NCBI RefSeq assembly: GCF_000014005.1
Contig: NC_008009.1
Coordinates: 4,898,001-4,962,000 of the forward strand
Direction: 5' to 3'
Source of the DNA: Candidatus Koribacter versatilis Ellin345
Lineage (GTDB): Bacteria > Acidobacteriota > Terriglobia > Terriglobales > Acidobacteriaceae
Length of the DNA stretch: 64,000 nt
Position 1 is the first letter of the stretch, and the number at the start of each line of letters is the position of its first letter. Under the pieces are notes generated by a model. That model made no database searches. It worked only from the letters and a program-made list of their open reading frames with translations, and was not told the origin of the DNA. The position numbers were made by a program, and so were the translations under genes. Below are positions 3,048-6,413 of this stretch, piece by piece.

Positions 3048-5171
<2,124 letters not shown>

Positions 5172-5221: not shown

Positions 5222-5256
5222 TGTCATCCAGAGGAGCGCAGCGACGTGGGATCTGC
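5222..5256. repeat. Intergenic repeat family A, copy 1 (reverse orientation)
   Basis: A short TGTCATCC...GAGCGCAGCGA...GGATCTGC element. It is the inverse of the CCTTCG...CGCTCAGGATGACA elements found at six other places in this window. It is imperfect and non-coding. Confidence 0.6.
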
Positions 5257-5271
5257 TTTTCGGCGGGGCTG

Positions 5272-5290
5272 GCTAGTGGGTCAGTTTGAA
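5272..5290. repeat. Left inverted repeat of the collagen-like cassette
   Basis: A 19-nt arm containing GTGGGTCAGTTTGAA. It is the reverse complement of 5695-5713 at 16 of 19 positions (core AAACTGACCC). The two arms bracket exactly one promoter and one gene. Confidence 0.6.
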
Positions 5291-5318
5291 CTCTGGAAGA
5301 GTCGCCCTTTTTATTCGC

Positions 5319-5345
5319 TTGCTTGAGCGTCTGGCATGCTACGAT
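5319..5345 (+). promoter_or_regulatory. Possible extended -10 promoter for the collagen-like gene
   Basis: TTGCTT at 5319-5324 and TGCTACGAT at 5337-5345 resemble a -35 and an extended -10 box (TGnTAnnAT), with a short 15-nt spacer. They lie inside the left inverted repeat and before the AAGGAG ribosome-binding site at 5356-5362. This is pattern only. Confidence 0.35.
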
Positions 5346-5372
5346 TACGCGCCCAAAAGGAGAAATCTGAAT

Positions 5373-5693
5373 TTGAAAACCACCAAAGGCAAAAGGGGAA
5401 TTCAGGGGCCTCCAGGACCTGCGGGACCGGCGGGACCAAGAGGGCTACAGGGGTTAACGGGAAAGAGTGGTAAGACAGGAATTCCAGGTGCAATTGGGAA
5501 AGTGAGAAATCTTGCCGAGGTCGGGATTCAGCTCAAAGTTGTGGATAAGAGTATTGAGCACATCTACAAGGAAATGGACGACCACATCACTCAATTGAGT
5601 CAGCTCCATCACCAACTTGATTCTCTACGAGAAATCGTGCGGAATTTGGCTAAAAAGACCCAGGCATTCGGAATGTCAAATTCAAAATCTTAG
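5373..5693 (+). CDS. Collagen-like Gly-X-Y repeat protein with coiled-coil tail
   Basis: About 106 residues if translation starts at the TTG at 5373, some 10 nt after an AAAAGGAG ribosome-binding site; an in-frame TTG at 5286 would make 135 residues. After a basic start (MKTTKGKRG), residues about 9-43 are uninterrupted collagen triplets with proline-rich GPPGPAGPAGPRG, then GLQGLTGKSGKTGIPGAIG. The tail (about residues 50-95: VGIQLKVVDKSIEHIYKEM, HITQLSQLHHQLDSLREIVRNL) has hydrophobic heptad spacing and would form a trimerising coiled coil. There is no signal peptide. Base composition is visibly more AT-rich than neighbouring genes, and the unit sits between inverted repeats, suggesting transfer. 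Function unknown. Confidence 0.75.
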   Translation: MKTTKGKRGIQGPPGPAGPAGPRGLQGLTGKSGKTGIPGAIGKVRNLAEVGIQLKVVDKSIEHIYKEMDDHITQLSQLHHQLDSLREIVRNLAKKTQAFGMSNSKS

Positions 5694-5694
5694 C

Positions 5695-5713
5695 TTTAAA
5701 CTGACCCGCTACC
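5695..5713. repeat. Right inverted repeat of the collagen-like cassette
   Basis: TTTAAACTGACCCGCTACC, immediately after the stop codon at 5693. It mirrors 5272-5290 with three mismatches. Confidence 0.6.
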
Positions 5714-5861
5714 CGTGGCAACGCCCATAGACACTCCCGCCAAAATCCTTTATTCTTATACTTTGCCTTTAGGAGAGCGTTCCCGCCTGGGTGTCTCTGC
5801 CGCAAAATCCTCCTGAACACCTCTAAAAACGGCGTTAAGGAAGACGAAGGCCTCGATTGCC

Positions 5862-6413
5862 ATGTTGATTAGAATCAGAGATTTACAACTCCAGCGATTG
5901 GAGTTCAACGAGGCATTTCAGCCTGGTGCGATTGACCTCGGGGCCGACACCAAGCAGGTTGCGCCGCTGCACACGAGCGGCAAGGCCGAGTTGATCGAGG
6001 AGAACCGTGGTCACAAGGAAATCCTCGACGACATCCGGTTGGTGGGGAAGCTTGAAACCGAGGTGGAAGTCGCCTGTGCCCGCTGCCTGGAGCCGGTGCG
6101 ACAGCCACTGAGCCGCGAATTCGAACTCTTGTATCGTCCGCAAGGCGCCGACAAGACGAAGCAAGACGCGGCGGTCTCGAAGGGCGAAACTGAGATCAGC
6201 TATTACGAAGGCGACGGCCTTCTGCTGGAAGATGTGCTGCGCGAGCAGGTGCTGCTGGCGGTCCCCTACCGGGTACTTTGCCAGGAGAATTGCAAAGGGC
6301 TTTGCCCAACCTGCGCACGCAATTTGAATACTGGGGCGTGCGACTGTAAAGAAGCACCACCCGACCCGCGCTGGAATGCCCTTGGCACTCTGGGCGAGAA
6401 GCTTAAAAAATAG
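5862..6413 (+). CDS. yceD: YceD/DUF177 family protein
   Basis: A 183-residue protein. The central CARCLEPV motif and a C-terminal cysteine cluster (CQENCKGLCPTCARNLNTGACDC) are the DUF177/YceD signature, probably a metal site. Family members are almost always encoded directly before rpmF and are implicated in 23S rRNA accumulation; here rpmF follows after 42 nt and plsX after that. This is the classic yceD-rpmF-plsX block linking ribosome and phospholipid synthesis. A TATACT box at 5757-5762 may be its -10 element. The biochemical activity is not established. Confidence 0.9.
   Translation: MLIRIRDLQLQRLEFNEAFQPGAIDLGADTKQVAPLHTSGKAELIEENRGHKEILDDIRLVGKLETEVEVACARCLEPVRQPLSREFELLYRPQGADKTKQDAAVSKGETEISYYEGDGLLLEDVLREQVLLAVPYRVLCQENCKGLCPTCARNLNTGACDCKEAPPDPRWNALGTLGEKLKK

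Follow-up and report, generated by a model that had tools for sequence, protein, structure and literature searches.

An IS1-type end pair around a collagen-like gene in Candidatus Koribacter versatilis Ellin345: a probable mobile insertion cassette

Introduction

A passenger gene is part of the definition of a mobile insertion cassette (MIC), and MIC231 of Bacillus cereus is reportedly the mobile insertion cassette of IS231, a member of the IS4 family. Excerpts of PMC3129680 place MICs among the objects related to insertion sequences (ISs), state that some MICs can be activated by a cognate transposase, and describe the transporter IS as an IS that holds passenger genes together with its transposase; according to the same excerpts, most genome annotations omit MICs.

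Herein, we describe a 442-bp unit in a stretch of 64,000 nucleotides from Candidatus Koribacter versatilis Ellin345 (the whole stretch is called the window below). The unit has IS ends, a predicted passenger gene and no recognised transposase inside. Its proposed target duplication agrees at 5/8 positions, whereas 75 of 119 pairs of such ends reach 7/8 or more, and a cognate transposase was not seen in its own genome, a feature that the excerpts of PMC3129680 do not require of a MIC. We conclude, with a probability of about 0.87, that positions 5272-5713 are a MIC in which the ends of an IS1-type, single-ORF IS surround a passenger gene without a transposase.

Results

The unit as a whole (5272-5713, no strand assigned) matches the ends of a transposon family on both sides, its outer bases being the first and last base of the end consensus found elsewhere. 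An earlier note on this DNA, made from its letters, had described two 19-nt arms lying face to face around a unit of about 440 bp that is richer in AT than its surroundings and lacks a transposase, and these points held, as did its coordinates 5272 and 5713. The arms belong to a 20-nt inverted repeat, 85% complementary, at 5271-5290 and 5695-5714; the left terminal inverted repeat (5272-5290, plus strand) agrees with the end consensus GGTAGTGGGTCAGTTTGAA at 18/19 bases and the right one (5695-5713, minus strand) at 17/19. Exactly two copies of the arm core AAACTGACCC are present in the 64-kb window, where 0.03 are expected, and 0 of 100 shuffles contained two. When the 1.4-kb region was shuffled 100 times with its dinucleotides preserved, one shuffle showed a 17/20 inverted repeat within 1 kb. 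The GC content is 0.48 in the cassette and 0.585 in the window. An HMM search of all six frames recognised no transposase inside the unit, which has one main ORF.

Two further points of the earlier note needed revision. A promoter-like pair had been placed inside the unit; the consensus scan found a sole sigma-70-type pair, and it lies just beyond the right end, at 5728-5756 (plus strand, TAGACA-17-TATTCT), upstream of the DUF177-type gene. Because it stands outside the unit, in a stretch largely conserved in the same-genus genome G459, this putative promoter more likely serves the downstream genes. As to the statement that no target-site duplication could be seen, a decayed 8-bp candidate can be proposed at the offset found family-wide, namely CGGGGCTG at 5264-5271 and CGTGGCAA at 5714-5721 (both plus strand), identical at 5/8 positions. 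Since about 4.9% of random pairings reach 5/8, this candidate is weak taken alone. Immediately left of the cassette, at 5223-5260, there is a dispersed repeat, GTCATCCAGAGGAGCGCAGCGACGTGGGATCTGCTTTT, with 23 copies in the genome at up to 3 mismatches (reversed control, 0); sequence resembling it begins inside miniature elements that have the same ends as the cassette (L066, L103, L222, L229).

The arms are not confined to the window. With at most 1 mismatch, the 17-base arm gave 343 matches in 60 of 120 genomes (own genome included), against 14 for the reversed pattern, a total read by eye from the match table, and many of the arms form facing pairs with 8-bp duplications. By genome, matches numbered 49 + 52 in G549, 11 + 16 in G479, 16 + 9 in G558 and 10 + 13 in G545. 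A set with one genome per species (84,980 species) contained 97 stretches with exact TAGYGGGTCAGTTTRAAC, from many phyla, and 95 stretches of viral contigs contained GGTAGTGGGTCAGTTTRAA. Facing pairs were defined as arms less than 6 kb apart, each with up to 3 mismatches and the better one with no more than 1, and distinct sequences were counted. This gave 119 pairs, the window's included, of 28 bp to 3.9 kb, which come from at least acidobacteria, Chloroflexi, Planctomycetota, Actinomycetota and alphaproteobacteria according to the record titles. The set is biased towards these ends, most loci having been fetched by arm patterns. Copies from one genome are related to each other, L422 and L430 seem to represent a single element, and some pairs, L237 (2/8) for example, may consist of ends that lie near each other by chance.

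Outside the ends of these pairs, 8-bp direct repeats were identical in 56/119, agreed at 7/8 in 19/119 and at 0-6 positions in 44/119. In an 82-pair subset, positions 0-7 agreed in 77-83% of the elements and the positions just outside in 35-40%, and when the right flanks of the 82 pairs were dealt at random, 7-8/8 was reached in about 0.8%. Because the flanking direct repeats lie so far above random pairing, the arms can be identified as transposon ends with an 8-bp target duplication. The consensus was drawn from 110 ends of 55 elements, and conservation drops after base 19.

The proteins enclosed by these ends were then considered. The transposase HMM scan covered the 82 pairs of at least 150 bp (the 37 shorter ones were left out) and was positive in 35: 0/22 at 150-299 bp, 5/29 at 300-2099 bp and 30/31 from 2100 bp. 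The 30 transposase-positive pairs of at least 2100 bp comprise 24 with a nearly complete transposase (in L109, in two frames) and 6 with a partial one (L095, L218, L413, L423, L429, L431). Three proteins were scanned against family models. Pfam IS1 (PF03400) was above its cut-off in two; in the third it scored 21.8 against a cut-off of 24.1, and DDE_Tnp_IS240 was just above its own cut-off. The NCBIfam IS1 model NF033558 was the best hit in all three, yet with 46-61 bits against a cut-off of 100. Of the relatives, H1, H2 and H4 on named plasmids, as well as H5, are annotated as 'IS1 family transposase', and H3, also on a named plasmid, as a helix-turn-helix protein. The four plasmid loci differ in their boundaries: the ends of L502 are perfect and its duplication is 8/8, the ends of L503 and L504 are of the GGTAGTGTCTCAG type and their duplications likewise 8/8, and L505 has ends without a duplication. 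Many of the 30 transposase loci of relatives adjoin variants of the GGTAGTG... ends; at L298, L300 and L305-L307 none of this type was found at up to 5 mismatches. In L093, L156 and L187, the transposase frame stops inside the arm, its last codons (...GSN-stop) being encoded by the terminal repeat.

Judged by these similarities, the transposase of the end family is of IS1 type. IS1 has ends beginning with GGT and 8-bp duplications, as has the end family here; the name of an IS1 subgroup, the ISMhu11 group, was not found in the open-licence PMC literature. An IS21-type origin of the ends was abandoned, the enclosed transposase being IS1-type. Among 120 genomes, arms were present in 30 of the 47 with a transposase and in 30 of the 73 others (Fisher p = 0.024). 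The association is loose, perhaps because each subgroup may have its own end variant.

The earlier note had asked whether other copies carry different cargo, and other pairs do enclose different genes. Forty-seven pairs of at least 150 bp have no recognised transposase, and 31 of these 47 have duplications of at least 7/8. Transposase-less pairs with 7-8/8 duplications include L070, L205, L224, L408, L412, L414, L421, L467, L473 and L474; some have one putative ORF and others several. The ORF of L070 encodes 121 aa with a HARE-HTH match below the cut-off, and that of L205 encodes 131 aa. L118 holds a deaminase gene (above the cut-off; duplication 4/8) and L096 a HAD-like gene (below the cut-off; 6/8); the duplications of L141 and L140 are 6/8 and 2/8, respectively. 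L218 (2.5 kb, 8/8) combines a DUF3800-like gene (19.5 bits, cut-off 21), an H1-like gene and a further gene that has no Pfam match and looks proteasome-like by eye, and only the last, C-terminal quarter of its transposase is retained. Several elements, such as L070 (GC 0.48 vs 0.59) and L071 (0.46 vs 0.65), are richer in AT than their flanks, and others (L408, L467, L205) are not.

A GRLGGLKGG-like small protein was found in 12/119 pairs, in 8 beside a transposase and in 4 without one; the strict motif missed the small protein of L218. A small gene whose motif resembles GRLGGLKGGKARA recurs in L094, L121, L129, L142, L414, L467, L218 and others. In L502, such a gene is annotated as 'histone H1' and a helix-turn-helix gene is also present. 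The recurrent small gene is perhaps a helper of the element.

These contents bear on how the window unit arrived. A complete IS1-type transposon with both the collagen gene and a transposase could have landed here and then lost the transposase internally, so that the unit, though still a cassette flanked by IS ends, never transposed as it now stands. Complete members of the family do carry passengers beside their transposase, and such transposase decay occurs, because L218 retains just a remnant. The window unit, however, lacks a recognised remnant in the six-frame HMM search, and the short transposase-less elements L070, L205, L408 and L473 have perfect 8-bp duplications, an indication that short units are able to move in that form. 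We consider this deletion history unlikely, although it deserves attention; it departs from the cassette reading only in the inferred arrival, and the probability given above refers to the cassette reading.

Within the family, miniature pairs (28-203 bp) are common, and ends also occur singly. It might therefore be proposed that the two window ends belong to separate miniature palindromic elements, between which the collagen gene was trapped by chance. But each window end is single, faces inwards and lies at the edge of the AT-richer stretch, no second end (at up to 2 mismatches) stands next to either arm, and the partial duplication favours one insertion, which makes such trapping improbable. 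Apart from the window, the arms of G549 (L199, L203, L207, L211, L215) are, in the listed part, mostly 85-bp facing pairs with a conserved interior. Units of 28-32 bp made of two back-to-back ends were seen in L127, L136, L143, L144, L177 and L189, with direct repeats outside them in L127, L144, L177 and L189; they are perhaps the smallest form of the element.

The cargo gene (5373-5693, plus strand) most likely starts at the TTG at 5373, 10 nt behind a ribosome-binding site, AGGAG, read from the sequence at 5358-5362 (plus strand). One such site and one gene with about 12 Gly-X-Y triplets and a coiled coil had been reported for the unit, and both descriptions are borne out. The 106-aa collagen-like protein matches Pfam Collagen (PF01391) with 31.2 bits, above the Pfam cut-off of 27.2, as expected of bacterial collagen-like proteins; it has 13 Gly-X-Y triplets at residues 6-44, and behind them six heptads, in the best of 7 registers, with 11/12 a/d positions hydrophobic. 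A single-sequence AlphaFold2 model predicts one helix at residues 38-102, with a pLDDT of about 95 in 61-90 and of 54-60 in 1-40. The comparison of base and codon use with neighbours, proposed earlier, also sets the gene apart: its GC3 is 0.47 vs 0.82, 0.70 and 0.79 in three neighbours, and its GC content differs as well. No fibre-end domain was found in the 106-aa protein by the Pfam scan, no signal peptide is apparent by eye, and PADLOC matched none of 7 proteins, the cargo protein included, to a defence function.

Homologs of the cargo protein were searched in three genome sets. Among 297 acidobacterial genomes there were 14 matches at E<=1e-3, and beyond the own genome a convincing coiled-coil alignment was found only in G293 (43% identity, residues 4-95). 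Two candidates were rejected: G010 (residues 7-85) turned out to be a stop-broken frame and G066 (residues 5-72) a longer, unlike protein. The 193 genomes of the class of G293 gave 15 matches at E<=1e-4. The alignments of G293, G332, G331, G347 and G336 reach well into both the collagen and the coiled-coil parts; the G331 copy has an internal stop, the G347 copy is cut by the contig end, and the three complete homologs, 107-111 aa long, are free-standing frames in which the parts follow in the order seen in the window protein. In the window's own class (399 genomes, 17 matches at E<=1e-6), only G594 covers most of the model when the own genome is set aside, and it does so within a 490-aa frame. 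A 988-aa frame of G130 aligns to cargo residues 1-80 at 30%.

Arms of the window type were found at 0/5 collagen-homolog loci; two of the loci, L047 and L049, are short contigs, and the flanks were incomplete there in the inverted-repeat search. The homolog in L048 (1432-1812), which alignment A4 excludes for its internal stop (TAG), is flanked by inverted arrays of a different repeat (CACGGTTCAACACGG type). That the best small homologs sit in another acidobacterial class fits transfer of the cargo gene, but none of them has window-type arms; the link of the collagen gene to these ends rests on one case. No match to the cargo protein was found at E<=1e-5 in 72,556 plasmid records, and a pattern search of genome contigs returned 132 stretches with no relative among them. 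Viral contigs gave at least 161 stretches with a relative, of which 80 were kept; the eight of these that were translated all have frames of at least 212 aa and another architecture. That the gene is a prophage tail-fibre remnant with incidental arms is very improbable: its Gly-X-Y part matches PHROG tail-fibre families, the 'collagen like minor tail' family matches residues 9-85 of the G293 homolog, into the coiled coil, and excerpts of PMC3368898 describe collagen joined to coiled coil in prophage tail fibres, but for the window protein none of the best 25 of 35 PHROG matches extends past residue 61, the three complete homologs stand free, the ORFs adjoining the cassette are not phage-like by eye, and no match was found at E<=1e-5 among 50,697 phage records.

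The window sits in a single contig of 5,650,368 bp, in which a 491-bp stretch is single-copy. A table in the excerpts of PMC5900883 appears to list no transposon transposase for Ellin345 (ND), and 6 phage transposases and integrases. Exact matches to the 14-base arm pattern occur in this genome only at the two window sites, and there is no excess of arms, because 38 matches at up to 2 mismatches stand against 58 for the reversed pattern. No second facing pair was seen in the genome; no IS1-type transposase was found there with alignment A3 at E<=1e-20, and PF03400 gave no match at E<=0.01 (the E. coli control was positive).

The cassette lies between an ORF at 3048-5171 (plus strand), which has homologs in G459 and which we take to be prolyl-oligopeptidase-like, and an ORF at 5862-6413 (plus strand), presumably a DUF177-type gene, followed by ORFs that we take to be L32-like and plsX-like. 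The right neighbour was matched in 57 of 61 genomes searched, and 30 of its loci were fetched, one being the window's own. In the 29 other genomes, the collagen gene was not found beside this downstream gene, which bears on the earlier note's question of whether it is present at this site without arms in relatives; the left neighbour and a clean empty site were likewise not found in these 29 loci. Among 33 downstream loci (4 overlapping others), window-type arms gave one weak single match.

The sole same-genus genome seen, G459, encodes a downstream protein 82% identical to the window's, has no cassette adjoining the downstream gene, and has its two flanking genes separated by about 8.3 kb in which other genes lie. 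Clear homology of the window to G459 starts roughly 15 bp to the right of the cassette, near 5728; a weak gapped alignment extends leftwards across the right arm, and we regard that part as a chance match. The G459 stretches L239 and L268-L270 yielded no collagen gene, and the two arms of G459 are single ends on other contigs. In L268 (8876-13165), the prolyl-oligopeptidase-like gene is present as two tandem copies vs one in the window.

Discussion

The suggestion that the unit is a transposase-less mobile miniature element with a gene for a structural protein is supported by the family ends, the duplications elsewhere, the varied cargo and the deviant GC content. Against the reading as a MIC count that the unit is single-copy and found in no other genome, that its own duplication is 5/8, that no empty site was found, that none of the five collagen-homolog loci has the arms, that transposase and arms are weakly associated, that NF033558 stays below its cut-off, and that a weak gapped alignment to G459 continues leftwards across the right arm.

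If the unit is a MIC, a family transposase encoded elsewhere in the ancestor of the cell, or on incoming DNA, would have bound the two ends and placed the unit a short way upstream of what is probably the DUF177-rpmF-plsX promoter; the transposase would later have been lost, or was never resident. The unit would since have decayed, with 3 changes in 38 end bases and 3/8 in the duplication. It seems stranded, because neither a second pair nor an IS1-type transposase was seen in its own genome, and it is presumably immobile unless a transposase is supplied. 'Mobile' would thus describe the past of the unit, since the element is single-copy and has no matching transposase in its own genome. The cargo gene retains an open frame, a ribosome-binding site and a start, and would probably yield a small rod, in which the C-terminal coiled coil is predicted to join chains, three being the likeliest number, behind a short Gly-X-Y triple helix. 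The frame being open while ends and duplication changed, there is a weak hint that the cargo gene may be under selection.

We also propose, tentatively and at somewhat less than even odds, that the IS1-type ends form a widespread shuttle among soil and water bacteria, in which resident transposases move many different short cassettes of one to a few genes in trans across phyla; the collagen cassette would be a stranded member, some of the cargo (H1-like small proteins, DUF3800-like proteins and helix-turn-helix pairs) would be helpers of the element, and the rest would be interchangeable payload. One 19-base end joins 119 paired elements in several phyla, many of them without a recognised transposase and with varied genes. 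It offers a simple handle for detecting single-gene transfer between soil bacteria, and a collagen-like rod is an unusual payload. Cassettes of the MIC kind are already known, and the end family and the collagen cargo were not met in the open-licence PMC literature, where we found no paper on either, no joint occurrence of 'collagen-like' and 'mobile insertion cassette', and no two of 'IS1 family transposase', 'passenger genes' and 'DUF3800' together.

Several known systems can be compared with the unit. The E. coli prophage fibres EPclA-D, as described in the excerpts of PMC3368898, join a collagen triple helix to a coiled coil, as does the cargo, but they are multi-domain phage fibres, whereas the cargo is a free-standing protein without fibre-end domains. 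With the single-ORF type of the IS1 family, the end family shares transposase similarity and differs in its NCBIfam IS1 score, which is below the cut-off. Miniature inverted-repeat transposable elements (MITEs) are likewise short and non-autonomous, with inverted ends and a target duplication, of which the window unit has a 5/8 candidate, and units of 28-203 bp, many from G549, are bounded by ends of the family; unlike these, the window unit holds a gene preceded by a ribosome-binding site. The longer family members, with a transposase and one or more genes, would fit the transporter ISs, in contrast to the window unit, in which no transposase was recognised. Like the window unit, MICs such as MIC231 have IS ends, a passenger gene and no transposase, and need one from outside; the window unit differs from MIC231 in that no matching transposase was found in its genome, in its IS1-type ends with 8-bp duplications in the family, and in its collagen-like cargo.
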